The translations under genes and the position numbers were made by a program. From a virus, in IMG/VR virus record IMGVR_UViG_3300035523_000066, positions 1-21,015 of that record: a stretch of 21,015 nucleotides of DNA. One strand, given 5' to 3'. The notes beneath the pieces were generated by a model. It ran no database searches and was not told where the DNA came from. It worked only from the letters and a program-made list of their open reading frames with translations. Shown in pieces: positions 9,004 to 20,676 of the stretch; the first letter of the stretch is position 1; every line of letters starts with the position of its first letter.

Positions 9004-9031
9004 AAAAAGAGCGGTATTAGTCGCTCTTTTT
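9004..9031. terminator. Strong bidirectional intrinsic terminator
   Basis: AAAAAGAGCG (9004-9013) and CGCTCTTTTT (9022-9031) form a perfect 10-bp stem with an 8-base loop. The A-tract and T-tract make it work in both directions. It lies 1 base after the tape measure stop and overlaps the last codons of the convergent gene at 9017-9550, so it can end both transcripts. Late transcription must read through it or restart for the baseplate genes. Confidence 0.85.
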
Positions 9032-9550
9032 ATTATAAGTACTTCTAGCTAAAACAATATCATAATTCAGAGCAATATATTTTTGTAGTACGTCTATAGT
9101 GTAACTTCTAGAATCGGAAAGATTAGACCATCTAAGATCATTAATTGATTTTTTACTTTCGTTTAATATATTGTTATTTCTGTCGAAATCAACGAATCTT
9201 AAAGTAGCATATTTATTATTTTTCATGTCATATATGATGCAATTGTATGAGTACAAAAATTGGTCATATTTTGTCGAATTACCGTAGTTCTTTTTATACA
9301 CAAAAATTCGGTTATTAACACCATCAGGAGTATATTCTATTTTAACCCAAGCAGCAACTTTATCTGTATCTACACCATTTTTTGTATCGATAAAACAGAC
9401 GCTGTTCTTATCGATGTATTCTGAGCTTAAAGGACCTTTAAAAACTAATTCGAAATCAGGTTCATAGGTTTTCACTGCTTCCGACAGCGCCGTCCCCACC
9501 CACGCGATCACGAACAGCATTGTCAACAGCGCAATCCATAGCTTTTTCAT
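9017..9550 (-). CDS. Secreted adhesin-E-like protein (moron)
   Basis: This 177-residue protein has a clear signal peptide (MKKLWIALLTMLFVIAWVGT, then ALSEA) and no lipobox. The mature part has the layout I associate with surface-adhesin E-type domains. It has an 'IDKNSVCFIDTKNG' strand pair, WVKIEYTPDG, a Cys-containing SYNCIIYDMKNNKYATLRFVDFDRNNNIL block, and a C-terminal Tyr/Leu-rich helix. Two cysteines could pair once exported. ATG 9550 is chosen over the upstream in-frame start at 9616 because AAAGGA lies correctly spaced before it and it begins the signal peptide. It is convergent with the tape measure gene and shares its terminator. Role probably lysogenic conversion of the host envelope (inference); the family call is moderate. 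Confidence 0.75.
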   Translation of the reverse strand: MKKLWIALLTMLFVIAWVGTALSEAVKTYEPDFELVFKGPLSSEYIDKNSVCFIDTKNGVDTDKVAAWVKIEYTPDGVNNRIFVYKKNYGNSTKYDQFLYSYNCIIYDMKNNKYATLRFVDFDRNNNILNESKKSINDLRWSNLSDSRSYTIDVLQKYIALNYDIVLARSTYNKKSD

Positions 9551-9574
9551 ATTATCACGTTCCTTTTTATTTAT

Positions 9575-9594
9575 GTTATAACAAAATTTAACAA
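9575..9594 (-). promoter_or_regulatory. Promoter of the adhesin-E-like gene, shared 19-base element
   Basis: Read on the minus strand, 9594 to 9576 is TTGTTAAATTTTGTTATAA, followed by C, giving an extended -10 (TGTTATAAC). The same element with 17 of 19 bases identical stands before the DUF2513-like gene. Distance from the -10 to the start codon is about 25 bases, with the AAAGGA ribosome site between. TGTTATAACA is itself palindromic, so a weaker plus-strand promoter for the gene at 9615 may use the same bases. Confidence 0.6.
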
Positions 9595-9614
9595 TAAAGG
9601 AGAATACTAATGAC

Positions 9615-9992
9615 ATGAACTCTCTTTATTTAAGTCAAAAAAATTTAGAGGAAATGATCAACTCAAAGCAGTACGTGATTACTGGCGTACTTGAAACTGG
9701 TGAAATCACGCTTTCCGTTGTAAGCCTCAACGAAAGAGATATCCTTGATAAATTATTATCATTAGAATCAGGATCTGCCGTGCCGTCGGAATGCGAGGAT
9801 AAAATCATTAGCGGTTTATATAAATTATCAGAGCTTCACGGCAATAACTCAAAAGAGCTTATTAAGGCATGGGAGCAAATAACGATTAATAGCCGTACTG
9901 ACGACAGATCAAAATTTGATTTTAGCTGGAAAACAGTTGAGCTTTGCCCTAAAAATGGGCTACAGATTAAGAAATTTAGAGACTATGGATGA
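9615..9992 (+). CDS. Unknown 125-residue moron protein
   Basis: I do not recognise this protein. It is soluble, mixed in character, with an N-terminal helix (LYLSQKNLEEMINSKQ), a short beta hairpin (YVITGVLETGEITLSVVSL), then helices (ERDILDKLLSLE, DKIISGLYKLSELH, SKELIKAWEQI) and a charged C-terminus. No signal peptide or membrane segment is present. ATG 9615 follows AAAGGAG (to 9602) by 12 bases, slightly long; ATG 9610 is out of frame and stops after two codons. It is divergent from the adhesin-E-like gene over a 64-base gap. Its last 33 bases overlap the convergent DUF2513-like gene with no terminator between. Confidence 0.65.
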   Translation: MNSLYLSQKNLEEMINSKQYVITGVLETGEITLSVVSLNERDILDKLLSLESGSAVPSECEDKIISGLYKLSELHGNNSKELIKAWEQITINSRTDDRSKFDFSWKTVELCPKNGLQIKKFRDYG

Positions 9993-10308
9993 TGCGACAT
10001 TTACTACCACATCAAGGGCGACAGTCCCTAAAGGCTTAACAGTTTCTTTGGTTTTGTGCCATACATCTTGGCTACGAATATTGTTTAAAAAAGAATGACC
10101 TTTTGGTGTCAAATCAATGATGTAATCGTTGCTAAAAATAATTAGATTCGCATCAGATAAATAGGCGATGTGATATTTTATTGTAGAATAATCGTAACTG
10201 GCGAAGGTAATTCTCATGGACTTGGGGAATGATGTAATTCCTGTCTCTGTCGCAAATGTCCTCTAGTGTTAGAAGTAAATCCCTGATTAAATCATAATCT
10301 AATCTCAT
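9960..10308 (-). pseudogene. DUF2513-like phage protein, frameshifted
   Basis: The N-terminus reads MRLDYDLIRDLLLTLEDICDRD from ATG 10308 with AGGTGG upstream, then runs into a stop after about 50 codons. The next frame carries the rest: YSTIKYHIAYLSDANLI, IIDLTPKGHSFLNNIRSQDVW and ALDVVVNVASSIVSKFL, a typical DUF2513 C-terminal half. The whole is 349 bases, one more than a multiple of three. Removing one base from the run GGGG at 10224-10227 (CCCC on the coding strand) joins the halves as IIPKSMRITFASYDYS. DUF2513 proteins are common small phage proteins of unknown function. A sequencing error in the four-base run is an alternative to true decay. The C-terminal half alone could start at ATG 10217. 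Confidence 0.75.
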
Positions 10309-10334
10309 TGTCCACCTGCTTTCAGTTTATTTTT

Positions 10335-10354
10335 ATTATAACAAAAGTTTACAA
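10335..10354 (-). promoter_or_regulatory. Promoter of the DUF2513-like gene, second copy of the shared element
   Basis: On the minus strand, 10354 to 10336 reads TTGTAAACTTTTGTTATAA followed by T, giving a perfect extended -10, TGTTATAAT. It ends 27 bases before the start codon at 10308, with AGGTGG between, almost the same geometry as at 9575-9594. No good -35 is visible. The TTGTWAAM part may be a regulator site. It also lies upstream of the divergent gene at 10377. Confidence 0.6.
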
Positions 10355-10376
10355 AATAACACGGGAGGTAAATAAA

Positions 10377-10571
10377 ATGACTATTAACGTTATAGCTGGT
10401 AGTGAATCAGCAACTAAGGAAATCGTTCATAATATTATTAAAATATTGGCATTCCAATGTCTGACAATAGAAGAAGCGAATAGGGTTATTGATGAGGTAA
10501 AAAGACAAATTGCAAGTATTTCGGTTATGAATGCCTATGAGGTGCTTTATCGCGACAACCTACCTAAATAA
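10377..10571 (+). CDS. Unknown 64-residue moron protein
   Basis: A small protein of unknown function, probably all helical: a short N-terminal strand (MTINVIAGSES), then two helices (ATKEIVHNIIKILAFQ and TIEEANRVIDEVKRQIASIS). It has no membrane segment or known motif. ATG 10377 is favoured over an upstream in-frame start at 10308 because GGGAGG at 10363-10368 is correctly spaced and the upstream stretch is promoter DNA. It is divergent from the DUF2513-like gene. Its last 25 bases overlap the end of the minus-strand gene at 10547-10873, so the two mRNAs would be complementary at their 3' ends. Confidence 0.6.
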   Translation: MTINVIAGSESATKEIVHNIIKILAFQCLTIEEANRVIDEVKRQIASISVMNAYEVLYRDNLPK

Positions 10572-10873
10572 AATCCGATAATAAGCATAACGACCTGCCA
10601 GATACGAGGCTCCCACTTATCCCGAATGGCTTTTCTTTTTTGTTCTTGTAACGCAGGAAGATATCCAAAAGCATCGGGTTTTACGAAAACCTGCATATTA
10701 TCGACTTTTATTAAATTTAATTTTTCTAAAGCCGCAAGGGCGGCCTGAAATTCGATCAAAGAAACTCCTGGAGTATCATTATCGTTCCATTGACCGAAAT
10801 TTATGTTTGTATTTGGCTTTTTTGCTATTTCTAAGATTAACGTTAAAACCTTTTCATTCGTTTTTGAGTCCAC
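10547..10873 (-). CDS. Winged-helix-like protein with C-terminal membrane anchor
   Basis: This 108-residue protein has an N-terminal part that looks like a small winged helix (NEKVLTLILEIAKKPN, then VSLIEFQAALAALEKLNLIKV, then a hairpin DNMQVFVKPDAF). A charged linker (LQEQKRKAIRDKWEPR) and a single membrane segment (IWQVVMLIIGFYLGRL) at the very end follow. It might sense or regulate at the membrane, but I recognise no family. GTG 10873 is preferred over the in-frame GTG 10882 because GGGAGG lies 8 bases before 10873. It is divergent from the Dit-like gene and convergent with the 64-residue gene. Confidence 0.65.
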   Translation of the reverse strand: MDSKTNEKVLTLILEIAKKPNTNINFGQWNDNDTPGVSLIEFQAALAALEKLNLIKVDNMQVFVKPDAFGYLPALQEQKRKAIRDKWEPRIWQVVMLIIGFYLGRLSR

Positions 10874-10901
10874 AGGTATCACCTCCCATCAAAGCGATAC
10901 T

Positions 10902-13150: not shown

Positions 13151-13744
13151 ATGCCAAAACTCAACGAACGAACACAAGATCCGGTCGAACTGTATCAGCG
13201 TTTTCGTGATGCGATTCAGTCAGGAATGCGCGTGGCTGCACCCGGTATGATTCAGTCGGTAGATCTTGAAAAACAGACTTGCACTGTACAGCTCGCCATC
13301 CGGGAAAAACTTAATTTTAACGGCAATTTAGAATGGACGGAAATTCCGCTGCTTCTAGATGTGCCGCTTTTTATTTACTCTGGCGGTGGCTATTGCATGA
13401 CATTGCCTATTCAGAAAGATGATGAATGTCTGGTTATCTTCGGTGACAACTGCATGGACTCCTGGTGGCAGTCGGGTGGCGTGCAGAATCAGATCGAGCG
13501 CCGGCGCCATGATTTGTCTGATGGCTTTGCTATTGTTGGTTTTCGGAGTCAGCCACAGACGGTAAAAAACTATTCTACTAATACAGCACAGCTTCGCAAC
13601 GCTTCTGGCAGCGCCTACATTGAAATTGCAGGGGACACGATTAATATTGTCTCATCCAACACCACGATAGACGGGCGGTCTTTTCTTGGTCATACCCATG
13701 GCGGTGTAGAGCCTGGCGGCGGCAAAACAGGGGGAGTGACATGA
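13151..13744 (+). CDS. Gp138-family membrane-puncturing spike protein
   Basis: This 197-residue protein has the Gp138 N-terminal OB-like domain: GMRVAAPGMIQSVDLEKQTCTVQLAIRE, then LLLDVPLFIYSGGGYCMTLPIQKDDECLVIFGD and SWWQSGGVQNQIERRRHDLSDGFAIVGF. A C-terminal strand repeat (GSAYIEIAGDTINIVSSNTTIDG) ends in HTHGG at His181 and His183, the usual metal-binding tip of such spikes. It pierces the host outer layer on contraction. ATG 13151 is preferred over ATG 13142 because AGGAGG (13135-13140) is only one base from 13142 and ten from 13151. It follows the hub gene and overlaps the next gene by 4 bases (ATGA). Confidence 0.88.
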   Translation: MPKLNERTQDPVELYQRFRDAIQSGMRVAAPGMIQSVDLEKQTCTVQLAIREKLNFNGNLEWTEIPLLLDVPLFIYSGGGYCMTLPIQKDDECLVIFGDNCMDSWWQSGGVQNQIERRRHDLSDGFAIVGFRSQPQTVKNYSTNTAQLRNASGSAYIEIAGDTINIVSSNTTIDGRSFLGHTHGGVEPGGGKTGGVT

Positions 13745-14091
13745 TCTACAGAAAACTTGACGAAAACGGCGACTATGTATTTGGCCGGAATCAGAACAGC
13801 TATCTGCAGGACGCCAGCGCCGTTAATCAGGCGGTTGTAACCCGGTTACGGCAGCTCATCTATGAATGGTGGGAAGACCTCGAAGACGGGATTCCGGTTT
13901 GGCAGAAGATTTTAGGCAATCGCAACAAGCAGGAGGCTGAACAGATTATCAGGGAACGAATTCAGAAAACGAAATATGTTAAAAGCATTCTGTCATTTGA
14001 ACCTACTTGGGATAATGAAACCCGAACGCTTACCATTCAGACTTCGATTGATACCGAATTTGGCCAAACGGACATAAACGAGGTGATATAA
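13741..14091 (+). CDS. Baseplate wedge protein, gp25-like
   Basis: This 116-residue protein begins with a short strand turn (YRKLDENGDYVFGRNQN), then VNQAVVTRLRQLIYEWWEDLEDGIPVWQKILG and a C-terminal strand pair (VKSILSFEPTWDNETRTLTIQTSI). The order, size and mid-protein 'Q.V.TRL..L..EW..D...G.P....' pattern match gp25-like wedge proteins, which join sheath to baseplate. The N-terminal tyrosine/glycine stretch is the part that in T4 gp25 mimics a sheath strand. Its ATG overlaps the spike stop (ATGA), and its stop overlaps the J gene start (TAATG), which supports a coupled spike-wedge-J unit. Confidence 0.78.
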   Translation: MIYRKLDENGDYVFGRNQNSYLQDASAVNQAVVTRLRQLIYEWWEDLEDGIPVWQKILGNRNKQEAEQIIRERIQKTKYVKSILSFEPTWDNETRTLTIQTSIDTEFGQTDINEVI

Positions 14092-15257
14092 TGGCCTATT
14101 TCGCTCCCTACATTGATGATGCTGGCTTACACATTCCATCATACAACGATATTCGCGATGACTTAATTTCTGAGTTTAAACAGATTTACGGTCAAGATAT
14201 CTACCTTGATAATGACAGCCAAGATTATCAAATGATGTCCGCATTTGCCTTGAAAAACTATGATACCATGCAACTATTACAAATTGTCTACAACAACCGA
14301 AGCCCAAAAACGGCGGTAGGCAGCGCTCTGGATGGGGTGATCAAGCTGAACGGTATCAAACGTAAAGCAGCCAGTTATAGCACCTGCGTTTTAACCCTTA
14401 CCGGTACTGTTGGCGCTACGATTATCAACGGCGTAGCCGAGGACGACGCCGGCATGAAATGGAACCTGCCGGATACGGTTCCGCTGTTAGCCAGTACATA
14501 TCAGGTTAGCGCGGCCTGCACAGAGATAGGGGCCATTGAAGCGTCACCCGGCACAATTACCAAAATTGTTACGCCTACTAAGGGCTGGCTGTCTGTTACA
14601 AATGCCGTGCCTGCCGTTGTAGGGGCGCCAATAGAAATTAATGAAACGCTCCGGCAGCGTCAGTCAGTAAGTGTAGCTATTCCCAGCCAGAACATGTTGG
14701 AGGGGACTATCGCCGGTATATCCGCCATTGCAGGTGTAAATCGGTACAAAGTGTACGACAACGACAGCAACGTGGCTGATGATAATGGTATTCCCGGTCA
14801 TTCCATCGCCGCTGTTGTTGAGGGCGGTCTTGACGCAGAAGTGGCCGAGCAGATTTATTTGCGTAAAGGACCGGGAGGCGGCACTTACGGTGACGTAGGT
14901 GTGGAGTATATCAAATCGGATGGCTTGCCTGTCATCATCCGGTTTTTCCGCCCGAGTTATGGTGTGATTGACGTTGCCTTTACAATCAAAAAAAATGCCG
15001 GATATGTCTCAGAAATAAAAACAAAGATCGAGGCAAAGATCAAGGCTTACATTGAGAATCTGGATATTGGGACGGATGTCACCATAACCGGCGTTTTAGC
15101 GTCTGTGCTGTCGGTTATTGAAAACCTATCTAAACCGCCGTTCTCTGTTGTATCGCTTATGATTGGTCGCCAGGGAGGAACGCTGGACAATACGGATATT
15201 GATATCTCTTTCCGGGAAGTCGGCGCGCTGGGGACGATTACAGTAACGGAGGTGTAA
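14091..15257 (+). CDS. Baseplate J / gp47-family wedge protein
   Basis: This 388-residue protein is a typical baseplate J protein. The N-terminal helical part is PSYNDIRDDLISEFKQIYGQDIYLD, followed by LLQIVYNNRSPKTAVGSALDGVIKLNGIKRK and a strand-rich middle (STCVLTLTGTVGATIINGVAEDDAGMKWNLPDTV). Next come ETLRQRQ, GIPGHSIAAVVEGG and a C-terminal VDVAFTI-like domain with IEAKIKAYIENLDIG, TGVLASVLSVIENL and REVGALGTITVTEV. It forms the wedge that changes shape on attachment. Its start overlaps the previous stop by one base, and the next gene follows after two bases. Confidence 0.9.
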   Translation: MAYFAPYIDDAGLHIPSYNDIRDDLISEFKQIYGQDIYLDNDSQDYQMMSAFALKNYDTMQLLQIVYNNRSPKTAVGSALDGVIKLNGIKRKAASYSTCVLTLTGTVGATIINGVAEDDAGMKWNLPDTVPLLASTYQVSAACTEIGAIEASPGTITKIVTPTKGWLSVTNAVPAVVGAPIEINETLRQRQSVSVAIPSQNMLEGTIAGISAIAGVNRYKVYDNDSNVADDNGIPGHSIAAVVEGGLDAEVAEQIYLRKGPGGGTYGDVGVEYIKSDGLPVIIRFFRPSYGVIDVAFTIKKNAGYVSEIKTKIEAKIKAYIENLDIGTDVTITGVLASVLSVIENLSKPPFSVVSLMIGRQGGTLDNTDIDISFREVGALGTITVTEV

Positions 15258-15259
15258 AT

Positions 15260-15904
15260 ATGGCCCTAAAAGACCGATACTTAAACCTCATTACGAACCA
15301 GCACCGCGATAAGCCCAAATACATGGCCATGCTGTCGGTGCTTCTGCAGCCGAGTGAGGATATTTTTACAGTTGGAGTCTACTTAGATGACGAATTTGAT
15401 CTGGATAATGCGGTAGGAAATCAGCAAGATATCCTTGGGCACATCGTGGGCCAGGAGCGTACTCTTCCCTTCCAGCCAGACAAAGGGTTATCCCCTGTCC
15501 TTGATCAGTACGCATACCGCAACTTGCTAAAGGCGAAAATCGCTAAGAACATGTGGAAGGGCCGCGTGGAAGACTTAAAGACAACCTGGTTGAATCTATT
15601 TGGAAAACCCATTATCATCCAGGATAATCAGGATATGACTATTGATGTGGTCGTTATCGGCGAATTCGATCAGATTACCAAGGATATGATTTTACATGGG
15701 CTAATTGTCCCAAAGCCGCAGAGCGTCGGCATTAAATATTGGTTTGCCGATGATGCTGTTTTTGGTTATGACATGGAAACGAGTATGGTAAAAGGTTATG
15801 ATCATGCGGCGTGGATGACGCAAGAATTACTGCCGAGTTTTGCTTATGATTTGGAAGATGAAGAGCAAAAACTGTTTGGGTATAACCAAGGCTATTGGAC
15901 GTAA
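15260..15904 (+). CDS. DUF2612 baseplate/tail protein (gpI-like)
   Basis: This 214-residue protein fits DUF2612, the tail protein that follows baseplate J in many Firmicutes myoviruses. Visible marks are RYLNLITNQHRDKPKYMAML, the segment VYLDDEFDLDNAVGNQQDILGHIVG, and a helix with YRNLLKAKIAKNMWKGRVEDLKTTWLNLFG. The following strand region is IIIQDNQDMTIDVVVIGEFD, with VPKPQSVGIKYWF. It probably links the wedge to the tail fibre. The C-terminal 60 residues, rich in Tyr, Met and acidic residues, look variable. ATG 15260 has GGAGG just upstream. The short tail fibre gene starts 12 bases later with its own AAGGAGGG. Confidence 0.88.
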   Translation: MALKDRYLNLITNQHRDKPKYMAMLSVLLQPSEDIFTVGVYLDDEFDLDNAVGNQQDILGHIVGQERTLPFQPDKGLSPVLDQYAYRNLLKAKIAKNMWKGRVEDLKTTWLNLFGKPIIIQDNQDMTIDVVVIGEFDQITKDMILHGLIVPKPQSVGIKYWFADDAVFGYDMETSMVKGYDHAAWMTQELLPSFAYDLEDEEQKLFGYNQGYWT

Positions 15905-15916
15905 GGAGGGAAAATA

Positions 15917-16417
15917 ATGGCACAAACAAATTTTAAAGTATTCAATGAAGAAATGAGTTCCGACAGGACTTTTAATGATTCCGAATACAGCCTGGCCACG
16001 CAGAGGCAGGGCGGAGTAATCCCCGGCATGGCATTAAGCCGGCTACACAATAAATTGTATCGACAATCTACCGCCATGGCTAAAGCGATTGCAGACTTTT
16101 TGGTGGTTCAAGGTTATGACGCCATGGATAACAATATTGAAGGTATCACGCTGGGGCTACGAACTGCCATTGAGGGGATTATAGCAGATAAGACTGCAGG
16201 GATGGGTATCAACACCCTGAAACGCAATCATATCTACGCCGTTGGTGACGTAGCCTTTAGTCCCAATCTGCCGACATGGGCGCGGTTAGACTGCATTGTG
16301 GCCGGGACAACAGCAGAGGTGGAGTCAACGTGGGGAACGGTGATCGAAGGGCAGCAGATTGTTGATGGTAGCGCGACATGGCTTATCGCTGATGTCAAGC
16401 ATGCGTTTTACGGGTAA
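15917..16417 (+). CDS. Short tail fibre / tail-tip protein
   Basis: This 166-residue protein begins MAQTNFKVFNEEMSSDRTFND, a common opening of tail fibre N-termini in this type of phage. A collagen-free helical part (LSRLHNKLYRQSTAMAKAIADFLVVQGYDAMDN) follows, then a strand-rich C-terminus (IYAVGDVAFSPNLPTWARLDCIVAG). It lies directly after DUF2612, the usual place for the fibre gene. It is short for a receptor-binding fibre and has no obvious distal domain, so the true receptor-binding or receptor-modifying part may be the SGNH-Cys protein encoded two genes on. AAGGAGGG lies ideally before ATG 15917. Confidence 0.75.
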   Translation: MAQTNFKVFNEEMSSDRTFNDSEYSLATQRQGGVIPGMALSRLHNKLYRQSTAMAKAIADFLVVQGYDAMDNNIEGITLGLRTAIEGIIADKTAGMGINTLKRNHIYAVGDVAFSPNLPTWARLDCIVAGTTAEVESTWGTVIEGQQIVDGSATWLIADVKHAFYG

Positions 16418-16427
16418 GGGAGGGGTG

Positions 16428-16697
16428 ATGATATTGGAAGAGAGTTTATTTTGCCGCTATTGTCCTTGCGCGGGCTGGTGCGATGGAAATCAAGATAGTA
16501 ATCGGCAGCTTACAGGGTATGAATTTATACCAGATCCTGACCATTGCAAGGAAATGTTTAAACGAGAGACAGAGATCACGTATAACACCTTTTTGCAGGC
16601 TGTTTTTGAGCTGCACGGCAGCACGGTAAATAAGGATTGGCATAGATTTTTAGAAAGCGAGGTGAGTGACGATGAAAATTGTATGCCTAGGCGATAG
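16428..16697 (+). CDS. Small cysteine-containing protein, unknown, upstream of SGNH-Cys gene
   Basis: About 89 residues. The N-terminal half has cysteines at 9, 12, 14, 18 and 40 (FCRYCPCAGWCDG, then DPDHC), which could bind a metal, and a helical second half (ITYNTFLQAVFELHGSTVNKDW). A last Cys is at 85. I do not recognise it. GGGAGG near 16418-16423 leaves ATG 16428 close and TTG 16434 at better spacing, so the start is uncertain by two codons. Its 3' end overlaps the hydrolase gene by 26 bases, so it is in the same operon. It may be a tail chaperone or a helper of the modification system, but it may also be an unrelated fibre-region protein. Confidence 0.6.
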   Translation: MILEESLFCRYCPCAGWCDGNQDSNRQLTGYEFIPDPDHCKEMFKRETEITYNTFLQAVFELHGSTVNKDWHRFLESEVSDDENCMPRR

Positions 16698-17922
16698 CCT
16701 AACAGCTGCGTATGGATCATCGGCGCAAATTCCAGATATGGCGGCAGCCGCTCCATACAACTGGGTAACGCTGCTTAACAATTCTACGGCTGATCAATAT
16801 ATCAACTCTGGAGTCAGTGGAGAAAGAATTGATCAGATGCTTGCGAGGTTTAGCACCGATGTGCTGGCAAAATCACCAGATACGTGTATTATACTTGGGG
16901 GGATCAACGATCTATTTCAGCGAAAAACAGTGGCCGAAACTATCGGGAATATCTCTGCGATCGTGAATCTTTGCAAAACCAACAATATAACACCGATTGT
17001 GGGAGTTCCGATCCCGGAATGGACTTTCGCTTGGCGGTTTACCGAGGGTTTTGACGCGGGAAATTATTCGCCTACAGAATACAATTTCTACCTTGAGCAA
17101 TCGGGGGAAATGTCCGCGTTAAGAGAAGCGGTTCGGCAGTATTGCTTGCAAAACAAGGTTATTTTTCTGAATTTGTATAACACTGAATTCTTGACCTCGC
17201 CAACCACACAAGATTCGACTTGCTACCTGTCAGATAAAATCCATCCTAACGAAAAAGGTTACCGGATTATGGCAAAGCATATCGCTAGCACTATCGCACT
17301 CATTAAACATCAAGTCATTCGGGCCGCGCATATTGCCAACCTCCGAACAGCGCTTACGGCGGAACTCACGCGCCGAGGAATGAGCAGCCAGGCCACTTAT
17401 GCGGCAGATCTAACCATAGGAAAACCTATCAAAGCAGTGCATGTACAGGAGCTCATGGATAAGCTTACGAATATAAAAACGGCGGTTTACACGGATAATC
17501 CAATTATTCTAAACAGGACAACAGTAAAGGAATTACATCAAACAGAGATATCAGTAATGACTGATTTGCTGGCAAGTTATCCAAAGCAGGGCGGAATCAC
17601 AAGCTGCAATACAAGTTGCACCGGATTATGTGTATCTTGTACCGGATCATGTACAGGTGGTTGCACAAGCTGCACTGGCTGCAGTGGTTGCGGTGCTAGC
17701 TGCAGTACCAATTGTAATAATGATTGCTATACTGGATGTCATGGAAGTTGTAAATTTTGGTGCAATAGTTGTAATGCCACGTGTACAGCTGCTTGTGATA
17801 GCACCTGCGCATCTTCTTGTGCAGGTAATTGTAACCAAAATTGCTCTACCGGATGTACGTGGCAATGTGCTGCAAACTGTTTGACTTACTGCGAAGCGGC
17901 TAATCTTGCGATAAATCATTAA
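16672..17922 (+). CDS. GDSL/SGNH hydrolase with C-terminal cysteine-rich domain
   Basis: A 416-residue protein in three parts. Residues 1-210 are an SGNH hydrolase: block I GDSLT with Ser9, block II around Gly50 (SGVSGERID), block III GGIND with Asn79, and block V DKIHP with Asp188 and His191. It probably removes acyl groups from a host surface glycan. Residues 211-308 are a helical linker. Residues 312-407 hold 26 cysteines spaced only by two or three residues and rich in Thr, Ser, Gly and Asn; 26 of 96 is extreme. There is no signal peptide, so disulfides are not expected before release. ATG 16672 follows GAGGTG by 7 bases and is preferred over GTG 16666. The radical SAM gene downstream suggests its cysteine tail is the substrate. 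Confidence 0.85.
   Translation: MKIVCLGDSLTAAYGSSAQIPDMAAAAPYNWVTLLNNSTADQYINSGVSGERIDQMLARFSTDVLAKSPDTCIILGGINDLFQRKTVAETIGNISAIVNLCKTNNITPIVGVPIPEWTFAWRFTEGFDAGNYSPTEYNFYLEQSGEMSALREAVRQYCLQNKVIFLNLYNTEFLTSPTTQDSTCYLSDKIHPNEKGYRIMAKHIASTIALIKHQVIRAAHIANLRTALTAELTRRGMSSQATYAADLTIGKPIKAVHVQELMDKLTNIKTAVYTDNPIILNRTTVKELHQTEISVMTDLLASYPKQGGITSCNTSCTGLCVSCTGSCTGGCTSCTGCSGCGASCSTNCNNDCYTGCHGSCKFWCNSCNATCTAACDSTCASSCAGNCNQNCSTGCTWQCAANCLTYCEAANLAINH
17605..17892 (+). repeat. Coding repeat: 26-cysteine C-x2/3-C array
   Basis: From Cys312 to Cys407 of the SGNH protein the spacing between cysteines takes only two values: 20 intervals of three residues and 5 of two. The two-residue gaps cluster in the first third (VS, TS, TG, SG) with one more in the middle (NS). 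Intervening residues are mostly Thr, Ser, Gly, Asn and Ala, with a few Trp, Tyr, Lys and Phe. Cys codons mix TGC and TGT, and DNA-level repetition is modest, so the array looks selected at protein level rather than recently copied. Confidence 0.9.
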
Positions 17923-17939: not shown

Positions 17940-18383
17940 TTGTTTGAAGCGAACAAACTTGATGTTTTGGCCAATTCAAGAGTGGTAACATCATTGTTAA
18001 CGGGGGAGCAATATTCTACAATTTATGATAATTACGTGAGCGATATTGGGAATATAGATAAATCACGGCTTATTTATAATTTTTATTTGCTCATCAATAA
18101 GTTGCAGCAGGAACATATTGCTTTTTTTGACTACTTGGTAACGCAAATGCCGGATAATGAAGCGGAAATAATTCTTACGAAGTTAATGCTCTTAGCTGAT
18201 GGAAAAAAATTAGATGAAATAAAAGAGTTGATTGACTATTATTATACAAAATTTCCTGTTTGCAAAGATATTCTTTTGATTGAACTTGACTATTTAAGCC
18301 ACAATTTCAGCGATAATTTGGACAAAATTCAAACGCTATTAAAGAAAATTGATGCTCTTTCTTTGGAGGAAACAAATGCTTAA
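17940..18383 (+). CDS. Small helical protein, candidate partner of the radical SAM maturase
   Basis: I do not recognise this 147-residue protein. It is acidic and almost all helical with no signal or membrane segment: helices around YSTIYDNYVSDIG, RLIYNFYLLINKLQQEHIAFFDYLV, EAEIILTKLMLLADG, LDEIKELIDYYYTKF and KIQTLLKKIDALSLEE. It stands between the cysteine-rich substrate and the radical SAM gene and overlaps the latter by 8 bases. In peptide maturation systems that position is often held by a recognition element (PqqD-like RRE). This protein does not look like the winged-helix RRE fold, so it could be a different kind of adaptor. TTG 17940 is favoured by AAGGAGGG at 17926-17933. Confidence 0.65.
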   Translation: MFEANKLDVLANSRVVTSLLTGEQYSTIYDNYVSDIGNIDKSRLIYNFYLLINKLQQEHIAFFDYLVTQMPDNEAEIILTKLMLLADGKKLDEIKELIDYYYTKFPVCKDILLIELDYLSHNFSDNLDKIQTLLKKIDALSLEETNA

Positions 18384-19533
18384 ATATTTTAGACGTCCAC
18401 AGCAAAATGAACTAGCTGATAACCTAACCTTTATCGTTACCGATGACTGCAACCTGCGCTGCCGATATTGCTATCAAACAGATAAACAGCCACGCGATAT
18501 GAGTGTTGAAACAGCTTTGCAAACAGCAGATTACTTTTTTGATATATACCAAAATAAGTATGACAAAGTAGTATTTGACTTCATTGGAGGTGAGCCGTTC
18601 GTTAGAATTGATCTTTTAGACAATGTAATTCCATACATGATAAAGAGATTCGAGCGGCAAAAAGCAAATGGTAAATGGAAGTCGATGCTGCTGGGATTTT
18701 CCACGAATGGTACCTGCTTTGGTGATGAACGGGTGAGGGATTTAATCGCAAAATATGGGAATTACATGTCTGTCGGATTGAGTCTGGATGGTGTAAAGGC
18801 CATCCATAACTACAACCGCGATAATTCATTCGATGAGGTAATGCGGTGGTTTGCGTACTGGCGGCAAACCTTTCCTAGGTCCAGTACTAAGTCAACATTG
18901 AACCACGAAGCAATACCCTATGTATTTGAAAGTATAAAATTCTTGACCAGTACTTGCCTTAATGAAATCTACATGAATACGATATATGAGGATTGTTGGC
19001 AGGAGGGGGACGATCAGATATTTTATGATCAACTCAAACAAGCAGCCGACTATATACTGACCAACAAAATCTACAAACAAAAATATGTATCTCTCTTTGA
19101 TACCAATATGTTAGTGGATGCAAATACGGACTGCAACTGGTGCGGTACCGGCAGTTGCATGTTGGCGGTGGATTATCAGGGTGATATATTCCCGTGCATG
19201 AGATTTAAGACATTATCCAAAATGGAACCACTGGCAATTGGGAATATAAAGGATGGTATTGACTATAAAAAGCTACTGCCGTTCTATTTCTGCCACAATA
19301 CGAAAAACAAACCAGATTGCGAGAACTGCGAAGCCCGTCAGGGCTGCCCGAACTGCACTGCATTTTGTTATAACGAAACGGGTAGCATCTTTGACAGGGT
19401 ATCGTATATGTGTAAAATGCATGTCGCGCGCAAAAAAGCCAATGAATACTATTGGAATCGGATGGCAGAAATCGAAGGAGTTAATCTAGCGGAATTGTTA
19501 ATAACAGAGCTAGACTCTATTCTTATGGGGTGA
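18376..19533 (+). CDS. Radical SAM/SPASM peptide maturase
   Basis: A 385-residue enzyme. The radical SAM cluster motif CNLRCRYC gives Cys25, Cys29 and Cys32, and GGEP (71-74) is the SAM-binding loop. The C-terminal SPASM domain has Cys261 and Cys274 around the G-x4-C signature (YQGDIFPC), Cys253 and Cys256, and the pattern Cys315-x2-Cys318-x5-Cys324-x2-Cys327-x3-Cys331 ending with Cys346. It should hold one SAM cluster and two auxiliary [4Fe-4S] clusters. SPASM enzymes of this architecture make thioether or C-C links in ribosomal peptides; families acting on CXXX-repeat peptides are known. ATG 18376 is preferred over an upstream in-frame TTG 18349 because GGAGG lies 6 bases before it. Confidence 0.92.
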   Translation: MLKYFRRPQQNELADNLTFIVTDDCNLRCRYCYQTDKQPRDMSVETALQTADYFFDIYQNKYDKVVFDFIGGEPFVRIDLLDNVIPYMIKRFERQKANGKWKSMLLGFSTNGTCFGDERVRDLIAKYGNYMSVGLSLDGVKAIHNYNRDNSFDEVMRWFAYWRQTFPRSSTKSTLNHEAIPYVFESIKFLTSTCLNEIYMNTIYEDCWQEGDDQIFYDQLKQAADYILTNKIYKQKYVSLFDTNMLVDANTDCNWCGTGSCMLAVDYQGDIFPCMRFKTLSKMEPLAIGNIKDGIDYKKLLPFYFCHNTKNKPDCENCEARQGCPNCTAFCYNETGSIFDRVSYMCKMHVARKKANEYYWNRMAEIEGVNLAELLITELDSILMG

Positions 19534-19613: not shown

Positions 19614-19796
19614 ATGGTACAAGAAGTGTGCATGGAACATAGTGGGCAATGCGAAGCAATCTCGACACTTAAAAAGAATGATGCTGATATTTTTAAGCGT
19701 CTGCGCGAGGTGGAAATGGCTGTATGGAAAGCCGCAGGAGTTAGTGGGCTAGCAACAGCCATACTAGTCGTCGTGTTGGAAAGGGTGATGAAATGA
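19614..19796 (+). CDS. XhlA-like holin-accessory protein
   Basis: A 60-residue protein with an N-terminal charged helical part (ISTLKKNDADIFKRLREVE) and a C-terminal membrane segment (VSGLATAILVVVLERV). That is the layout of XhlA (hemolysin-type) proteins, which cooperate with holin in Bacillus and Clostridium phages. ATG 19614 follows GGAGG at 19602-19606 by 7 bases; the frame stays open upstream to 19557, but without a ribosome site. It overlaps the holin gene by 4 bases (ATGA). A different frame over the same bases is not supported. The family call is moderate because the protein is small. Confidence 0.7.
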   Translation: MVQEVCMEHSGQCEAISTLKKNDADIFKRLREVEMAVWKAAGVSGLATAILVVVLERVMK

Positions 19797-20137
19797 TAAC
19801 CGAATATCAGATTGTGTTATGTGCCGCTGGGGTAATCCTGGCGGCTAATATTTTGGCTATGGCGCTGTTTGTGCTGTATGCCAAAATGCCCGAAAGCAAG
19901 ATAAAAGAGACAATTCGAAACATCATTTTTGAGTTAGACCGATTTGCGGACAACATGGAGAACGCTGAAAAACGCCGGACAGCGATTCAGCAGATCAACG
20001 AGGTTTTGGGATGGCGCCGCGTTTTGGTACCAGGTGCGCTCATCGGCTGGGTAATTGACGCGGAAGTGGCCGCTATTCGCAAAATGCAGCAGACTACAGA
20101 TTGTCCAAATTTACATGAGGAGAGTGATGGTAAATGA
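19793..20137 (+). CDS. LLH-family phage holin
   Basis: This 114-residue protein has one clear N-terminal membrane segment (YQIVLCAAGVILAANILAMALFVLY), then a charged helical part (IKETIRNIIFELDRFADNM, then AEKRRTAIQQINEVLG), with a C-terminal half ALIGWVIDAEVAAIRKMQ that matches LL-H-type holins. These set the time of lysis by making membrane lesions that let out the amidase. Its start overlaps the XhlA-like stop and its stop overlaps the amidase start by 4 bases, so accessory protein, holin and lysin are coupled in a single lysis cassette. Confidence 0.78.
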   Translation: MITEYQIVLCAAGVILAANILAMALFVLYAKMPESKIKETIRNIIFELDRFADNMENAEKRRTAIQQINEVLGWRRVLVPGALIGWVIDAEVAAIRKMQQTTDCPNLHEESDGK

Positions 20138-20676
20138 AAATATTTATTAACCCCGGCCATGCGCCGGATGGTAATCCAGATCCCGGAGCATGTAATCCAA
20201 GCACCGGACTACGTGAATGTGATGTGGCGGCAATCATTGGTGCGAAGACCGCCGAATATCTAAATGCGGCCGGATATGAAACGCAAGTGTTGCAAAGCGA
20301 TTCGCTCAGTGAGGTTGTGGGTACGGCCAATGCTTGGCCGGCTGACGCATTCGTAAGTATCCATTGCAATGCAGCCAATACGACAGCCCGGGGCGCGGAA
20401 ACTTGGTACTGCTACAATTCCGGTGCAGGAAAAAGATTGGCGCTGCGCATCCAAAGTCAGATCGTCAACTCACTTCTGATTGTCGATCGTGGAGTCAAGT
20501 ATGCCATGCCTGGTCGAAACGGTCTGTACGTCCTGACCAATACGGATATGCCGGCGGCACTCGTGGAAACGGCGTTTATTGATAACGCCGATGACGTGCA
20601 GCTGCTCGCTGATCCGGAGCGACAGAACGAGTTGGCCCGGGCGATTGCCAGAGGAATTAGTGATTATTTTTCGTGA
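20134..20676 (+). CDS. N-acetylmuramoyl-L-alanine amidase, endolysin (Amidase_3)
   Basis: This 180-residue enzyme is a single Amidase_3 domain with no wall-binding domain. Zinc ligands are visible: His9 in NPGH, Glu28 in RECD and His77 in SIHCN, with catalytic Glu145 in LVETAFIDN. It cuts the bond between muramic acid and the stem peptide. It has no signal peptide, so it needs the holin upstream. A lysin without a binding domain is usual for phages of diderm hosts, where the wall is thin. ATG 20134 overlaps the holin stop by 4 bases. A gap of 69 bases with a hairpin follows. Confidence 0.92.
   Translation: MKIFINPGHAPDGNPDPGACNPSTGLRECDVAAIIGAKTAEYLNAAGYETQVLQSDSLSEVVGTANAWPADAFVSIHCNAANTTARGAETWYCYNSGAGKRLALRIQSQIVNSLLIVDRGVKYAMPGRNGLYVLTNTDMPAALVETAFIDNADDVQLLADPERQNELARAIARGISDYFS

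Follow-up and report, generated by a model that had tools for sequence, protein, structure and literature searches.

The window, by which we mean the whole stretch of 21,015 nucleotides analysed here, originates from a 21-kb virus record without a host genome. On its plus strand it encodes a protein of 416 residues, P0001 (translation of 16672-17919), in which an SGNH hydrolase domain is joined through a linker to a cysteine array (Table 1). Only 17 bases separate P0001 from P0002, which in turn overlaps P0003; the three genes form a tight operon with their own ribosome-binding sites, and the array lies ~0.5 kb upstream of the enzyme gene P0003. Tail sheath and baseplate wedge proteins are encoded among the genes around the operon, which is placed in the tail module of a contractile phage, between baseplate and tail-fibre genes on one side and holin and amidase genes on the other. 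Contractile phages usually keep their fibres and receptor-binding proteins at such a position, and P0001, encoded within the tail module, is located like a tail fibre or receptor-binding protein. Further upstream, after a long tape-measure-like gene, the tail module is interrupted by several short, moron-like ORFs on the minus strand (9017-10882), one of which has a signal-peptide-like start.

Table 1 Features of the array operon and its surroundings, in positions of the window
Feature	Position	Strand	Basis or remark
Baseplate genes (wedge-type, DUF2612), upstream	13741..15904	+	phrog_120 3.8e-28, phrog_6 2.5e-56, PF11041 9.4e-31
Tail-fibre-like protein, upstream	15917..16417	+	phrog_11303 5.4e-6
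Small ORF, 88 aa, CxxCPCxxxC motif	16431..16697	+	directly 5' of array gene
P0001 residues 1-204, SGNH/GDSL hydrolase domain	16672..17283	+	PF13472
P0001 residues 205-311, helical linker (LD-type) ahead of array	17284..17604	+	LD profile, AlphaFold2
P0001 residues 312-407, Cys array, 26 Cys, gaps 2 or 3 only	17605..17892	+	translation
P0001 C-terminal tail, 9 aa, plus stop	17893..17922	+	translation
P0002, 147 aa, predicted all-helical	17940..18383	+	TTG start, AGGAGG ribosome-binding site
P0003, 385 aa, radical SAM/SPASM enzyme, probable array maturase	18376..19533	+	PF04055, TIGR04115
Holin-like protein, then N-acetylmuramoyl-L-alanine amidase, downstream	19793..20676	+	phrog_6918 0.0022; PF01520 1.9e-41, phrog_435 8.2e-58

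The array protein and its neighbouring enzyme

The hydrolase part of P0001 matches the Pfam family PF13472 (residues 5-199, E 5.9e-26), and blocks that we take to be the GDS, GxND and DxxH motifs are readable in it. P0001 shares the SGNH fold with phage tail-associated SGNH/GDSL acylhydrolases such as gp33 of Iodobacter phage PhiPLPE, whose gene adjoins that of a virion protein, and its hydrolase part shows 22.6-39.8% identity to phage SGNH proteins among the 20 matches listed. P0001 adds a linker and an array to the hydrolase. A single-protein search with P0001 revealed no close relative, and no homologue combining the same SGNH domain with a maturase.

For the linker, AlphaFold2 predicts three helices (block pLDDT 46-84); the best Z in a fold comparison against 68 chains was 3.5, and a sequence search of the PDB gave no match under E 0.1. 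The linker scored 17.0 bits against the LD profile, compared to 8.2 bits for the best of 1000 shuffled sequences, which is a weak match to the main LD family of adaptors and counts against the explanation preferred below. Most viral arrays are preceded by a domain of ~100 residues with the pattern LKAKVKAExxRR..GS...Y...P..G..I..EH..KI, and for eight array proteins Pfam returned no match, be it to an adaptor-type domain or otherwise. A profile of 21 adaptor sequences retrieved 48 ORFs at E<0.01 in the scanned loci, all 48 with an array, a count that includes the 21 seeds, which bear arrays by construction. Four distinct viral proteins (at loci L141, L143, L146 and L169) have a similar domain behind the array instead of before it. 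Because only the seed genome was matched in a linker search across 391 genomes of one class, the linker domain is rare in that class.

The closest relative of linker and array is encoded at locus L130, with 36% identity over 138 residues spanning the linker and the array start (E 9e-15) and with the first eight array gaps (3,3,2,3,3,2,2,2) identical to those of P0001. The L130 protein is without an SGNH domain and has a self-processing Hint domain directly behind its array (2627-3739 of L130). In an enzyme tree, the window groups with L130 (SH-aLRT 92), both on long branches; L178, L179, L181-L185, L188, L194 and L204 were left out of this tree, as were short, near-duplicate and low-scoring rows. 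Because L130 keeps the linker and the array without the SGNH domain and the enzymes are joined in the tree, the hydrolase looks like a swappable cargo on the adaptor and array.

The array had been described in a first-pass annotation as 26 cysteines in 96 residues with only two spacings, which the translation bears out: five gaps comprise two residues and twenty comprise three, in the order 3323322233333323333333333. With 26 cysteines in a 96-residue span and cysteine at both ends, the chance of all 25 gaps being 2 or 3 by random placement is 3.6e-18. An artefact of DNA tandem repeats is ruled out by the mixed cysteine codons (14 TGT, 12 TGC) and by Tandem Repeats Finder, which reported one 34-base stretch with 72% match and nothing else in the array region. 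Asp accounts for 2 of the 70 residues between the cysteines and Glu for none, and neither CC nor CXC motifs, as in metallothionein, were found in the window array. The idea that the cysteines line up along a helix face or one side of a solenoid found no support, as AlphaFold2 predicts almost no structure for the array, most of which has a pLDDT <50. The prediction leaves the array undefined and shows no rod; as it stands, this counts against the preferred explanation, and with respect to a modified rod we read the model as speaking neither for nor against. The array part of P0001 also matches PHROG 6085 (7.4e-5), as do 12 of 18 other array proteins tested; in that library, PHROG 6085 has no assigned function, no name and no link to a maturase.

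P0003 matches PF04055 above the cut-off (3.3e-14) and PF13186 with 18.0 bits, just under the cut-off of 21.5. As in radical SAM/SPASM peptide maturases, a CX3CX2C motif (Cys 25, 29 and 32) and SPASM cysteines are present; in an alignment of five, the former and the C-terminal Cys 256, 274, 315, 318, 324, 327 and 346 are invariant. Its best profile match in the PDB is 5wgg (1.6e-44), presumably the SCIFF maturase CteB. The nearest NCBIfam model is TIGR04115 ('radical SAM peptide maturase, CXXX-repeat target family'), matched over residues 15-359 with 303.3 bits. This score is below the cut-off of 350 bits, which counts against the preferred explanation; the phage enzymes of L083 (341.5) and L003 (300.6) are below it as well. 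The ranthipeptide maturase PapB is the second-best model (167.8 bits), and a cyclophane-forming maturase is among the near matches. In viral contigs, a single-protein search gave no close relatives of P0003. Radical SAM genes of 791-796 residues are present at L189 (4780-7167) and L176 (2362-4734), and at L189 we read an intein-like stretch after the CxxC of the cluster motif.

The kind of system found here, a CXXX-repeat target with a radical SAM enzyme, is already recorded in NCBIfam (TIGR04114, TIGR04115, TIGR04116, TIGR04117 and TIGR04119); no mention of these accessions was found in the literature searched. As in that system, a TIGR04115-type enzyme stands beside a Cys-repeat protein in the window, and the array start SCxxSCxGLC is common to the window and the Bacteroidota-type locus L002. 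However, the enzyme falls short of the TIGR04115 cut-off, the window yielded neither a TIGR04116 nor a TIGR04119 partner, and P0001 matched neither TIGR04114 nor TIGR04117, its only NCBIfam matches at E<=1 being two of hydrolase type. The missing TIGR04116-type partner also counts against the preferred explanation. Moreover, the target of the NCBIfam system is a Tat-exported cell protein, whereas the window has an SGNH-fused array in a phage tail module. The first-pass annotation had further suggested a modified or metal-bound array beside a maturase, on an SGNH protein; the neighbour's proximity to the 'CXXX-repeat target' model supports this, as does the co-occurrence of such enzymes with such arrays in phages and bacteria.

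A likeness also exists to the ranthipeptides PapA/PapB (freyrasin) and SCIFF/CteB (thermocellin), whose SPASM maturases are the next-best relatives of P0003 and whose cysteines are repeated at a fixed distance, as in the window array. According to the accessible text of PMC9413430, PapA has CX3D/E motifs in which PapB joins Cys to Asp/Glu by thioether, in line, tolerating spacings of 0-6. The P0001 array does not follow the CX3D/E pattern: the residue four positions on is usually Cys, and Asp/Glu are rare. Furthermore, the putative substrate in the window is a domain of a tail protein, whereas that of a ranthipeptide maturase is a free peptide. A literature search, with most subscription journals outside its reach, revealed no paper on the phage-tail use of an array with an SGNH hydrolase, and nothing relevant to the array system was found in the accessible text of PMC12750041 and PMC6143709.

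Arrays and enzymes in viral and bacterial relatives

An enzyme-first profile search covered the best 80 of 159 relatives from IMG/VR and the best 80 of 419 from GTDB. Loci were scored with a three-sequence enzyme profile, near-identical contigs being included in the counts, and an array was counted if it comprised at least 8 Cys (6 in two scans) with at least 80% of gaps at 2 or 3. The linkage of array and enzyme recurs: among these best-ranked relatives, an array was present in 110 of the 127 loci with an enzyme of at least 150 bits and in 0 of the 33 below. The 17 high-scoring loci without an array, ten of them viral and seven from bacterial genomes, count against the preferred explanation. 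Six of the viral ones (L178, L179, L182, L183, L185 and L188) have TAG stops inside the enzyme frame, two (L197 and L204) lie on contigs whose end or start falls inside or beside the enzyme gene, and the other two are L142 and L205. Two to six in-frame TAG codons, apparently reflecting TAG recoding, are found in the radical SAM genes of L178, L179, L181-L185, L188 and L194. No Cys array of this kind was found near these genes, even with stops read through; L194 has a single 6-Cys stretch on the other strand.

The arrays of the viral relatives (best 80 of 159) range from 8 to 92 Cys. Gaps of 3, 2, 4, 1 and 0 residues occur 1840, 463, 27, 6 and 5 times in 71 distinct viral arrays, so that 98% are 2 or 3, in arrays chosen for gaps of at most 4 with 80% at 2 or 3. 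The residues between the cysteines are small (G 28%, S 22%, T 18%) and rich in G/S/T/A/N, whereas Asp (4.6%) and Glu (1.3%) are rare, which counts against a PapB-type acceptor. CXX units are mostly C[ST]GC, and none of the non-Cys positions is fixed. In the first-pass annotation, the small residues of the window array had been put forward as candidate thioether acceptors. As to whether homologues conserve the spacing, a point raised earlier from the sequence, the fine register is kept within a lineage: L138 and L170 agree in every one of their 27 gaps, even the irregular ones, at an inter-Cys identity of 46% and with 12 of 28 Cys codons differing silently. Four pairs of jumbo phages keep 21/21, 15/15, 21/21 and 21/21 Cys with 6-8 silent codon changes, at an inter-Cys identity that is also high (88-96%). 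Across lineages, both the number of cysteines and the register vary freely.

An adaptor-first scan of IMG/VR with five adaptor sequences yielded 22 loci, all with an array and 18 with an enzyme match, two of the latter being split (L314 and L320). Half of these contigs (11/22) were already in the enzyme search; the 11 new ones comprise 11 with an array and 7 with an enzyme match. Three of the four loci without an enzyme end at or within ~1 kb of the array, while 12 kb of the fourth, L323, contain an adaptor and a 26-Cys array but no radical SAM gene, which counts against the preferred explanation. Most arrays retrieved by a CXXX DNA-pattern scan of IMG/VR look like simple DNA repeats, and only L048, L066, L065 and L083 appeared protein-like by eye among the matches listed, with L045 a doubtful case. 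An enzyme match accompanies the arrays at L083 and L065, and L066 has a partial second radical SAM gene; no enzyme was found near the L048 array in 6.8 kb.

In the bacterial relatives (best 80 of 419), the array protein carries a twin-arginine signal (SRREFF-like) in 24 of 45 array loci, and a TatC-like gene is present in 17 of the 45, weakly so in one (L239). No twin-arginine motif was found on the viral array proteins. Tat carries folded proteins. Judging from the Tat signals and the folded state of Tat substrates, the bacterial arrays are probably complete in the cytoplasm before export. The loci L210-L242 are mostly Bacteroidota clusters in which Tat-signal array proteins, TatA, TatC, a second maturase-like protein and a TIGR04116-like protein adjoin. 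The locus L002, from a record filed under phages, belongs to the bacterial kind, with matches to TIGR04116, TIGR04119 and, below cut-off, TIGR04117.

Baseplate or tail-fibre genes lie beside the system in five of five further loci tested (L170, L131, L144, L155 and L186) and in three of five of a second set (L130, L202 and L132), L192 and L137 giving no such match. Relatives also fuse arrays directly to tail-fibre proteins. Among ten array proteins surveyed for other N-domains, L207 is a tail-collar fibre protein (PF12571 N-domain, 1.8e-40) with an 8-Cys array at its end, and L206 and L202 are tail-fibre proteins with terminal arrays of 8 and 10 Cys, respectively; L174 has weak F5/8C and tail matches, and no tail domain was found in the other six.

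Each of the six jumbo phage genomes examined (phiEaH2, STsAS, Phobos, pEa_SNUABM_43, SPN3US and EarlPhillipIV) has a pair of arrays, of 15-21 Cys, and a pair of radical SAM genes, located beside a virion structural protein gene. The Cys-array ORFs are located at 2247-2480 and 2722-2889 in SPN3US (L293) and at 1267-1491 and 1734-1895 in phiEaH2 (L009); in RefSeq, the frame of at least one of the two jumbo-phage arrays is missing or unmatched by an annotated gene. In SPN3US, the arrays are downstream of an adjoining gene with the length of gp168, matched on size only. The accessible text of PMC5694885 describes gp168 as a virion protein and candidate for baseplate or tail fibre and contains no mention of gp163-gp167. 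A related radical SAM gene is present in Campylobacter phage CP220, with no CXXX array in the stretch examined, which counts against the preferred explanation. A 123-residue ORF of CP220 (L294, 15947-16183), ~7 kb from the radical SAM gene, contains 27 Cys, with a gap of exactly two residues between each and the next.

Proposed function of the array and alternatives

We infer that P0003 acts on P0001 by thioether chemistry and that the product is a rod present in the virion; the whole reading, in which P0001 is a distal tail protein whose array is cross-linked by P0003 into a stiff rod or tip, we hold with slightly better than even confidence. P0001 would be a tail-fibre or baseplate protein of a contractile-tailed phage, built from an SGNH hydrolase, a helical adaptor and the 26-Cys array. 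In the reducing cytoplasm of the infected cell, P0003 would bind the adaptor and/or the array start, then run along the array and install intramolecular cross-links from the Cys sulfurs. Since the protein ends shortly after the array, these would most likely be S-C thioethers formed inside it. The enzyme family, the Tat-exported cousins and the frequent lack of a Cys-free partner segment argue for cross-links that lie inside the array and are made before assembly; because Asp and Glu are too rare in the arrays, the sulfurs would be joined to small residues or to the next Cys. A flexible Gly/Ser/Thr/Cys stretch would thereby stiffen into a rod or tip resistant to redox changes and proteases, which would be built into the tail and carry or present the hydrolase at the cell surface. 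A more specific version, quite improbable in our view, is a sulfur ladder in which the radical SAM enzyme joins each Cys sulfur to a carbon of the next Cys, giving a continuous, length-adjustable tail-tip rod on the virion in several phage lineages and leaving Cys and its spacing as the sole invariant features. Here, the next Cys is favoured as acceptor because many arrays reach within a few residues of the C-terminus and because no inter-Cys position is fixed.

Instead of being cross-linked, the array might bind metal as Fe-S clusters, Zn or Cu, the enzyme being secondary or involved in building the metal site, which would result in a metal-stiffened or redox-active tip. Many reduced cysteines in the cytoplasm would suit such a role, and CXX and CXXX spacings can ligate metal. 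However, adjacent-Cys (CC) and CXC spacings are typical of metallothioneins, and gaps of 0 and 1 make up 11 of the 2341 gaps in the viral arrays, which were selected for gaps of at most 4 with 80% at 2 or 3. The Cys numbers also show no clear preference for even values (31 even, 22 odd) or multiples of four (17, 12, 14 and 10 cases leave remainders of 0, 1, 2 and 3, respectively), and the SPASM peptide maturase found time and again beside the array would have no clear role in metal binding; we therefore consider metal binding unlikely.

Disulfides that form outside the cell after lysis would fit the oxidising surroundings in which virions live. The enzyme would then make another change, e.g. 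epimerisation or C-C links, in keeping with the other chemistries among radical SAM/SPASM maturases and the cyclophane former among the near matches of P0003. This appears improbable given the odd Cys count in 22 of 53 distinct viral array proteins, the Tat signals of the bacterial relatives, which suggest folding before export, and the nearest enzymes, which are thioether formers. Bacteriocins are a frequent product of radical SAM maturases that act on Cys-rich peptides, and the Hint domain behind the L130 array would likewise agree with an antibacterial peptide system borne by the phage (a moron), from which the array would be released as a modified toxin and not kept in the virion. The fusions to SGNH and tail-fibre proteins, the array length of up to 92 Cys and the position in the tail module make such a toxin very unlikely; nor was an exporter, immunity or protease gene noticed on reading the 3 kb around the array.

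If cross-linking into a tail rod proves true, radical SAM cross-linking would supply a protein component of the virus particle, and would do so in such distant lineages as jumbo Salmonella/Erwinia phages and metagenome phage contigs. A purpose would thereby be found for the radical SAM genes of phages, to which the records examined assign no role, and a natural, length-tunable cross-linked rod would become available for materials and peptide engineering. The idea is testable in culturable phages such as SPN3US.

Small genes next to the array and the enzyme

P0002 matched no family at E<=0.05 in Pfam, NCBIfam or PHROG, and AlphaFold2 models it with helices only (pLDDT 47). Its assignment to the TIGR04116-like gene-B family was rejected, as there was no NCBIfam TIGR04116 match and the profile score was not above that of shuffled sequences; the profile does recognise a TIGR04116 member (28.6 bits), and with it the 88-aa ORF was not above shuffles either. 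Kinship of P0002 with like-placed genes was also rejected: phmmer gave no match at E<=0.01 among 37 larger ones, conserved columns are absent from an alignment of 17, and nothing above 3.7 bits was found in L130. Two small genes, one in L158 and a near-identical one in L180, weakly matched P0002 by phmmer (17 bits), which a profile did not confirm. We can only guess at a role for P0002 as chaperone or recognition partner. The 88-aa ORF, for which no Pfam or PHROG match was found, is possibly a small accessory protein of the array system, judging from its sole phmmer match among the relatives' predicted genes, the gene before the radical SAM gene in L130 (22 bits, E 7e-6).
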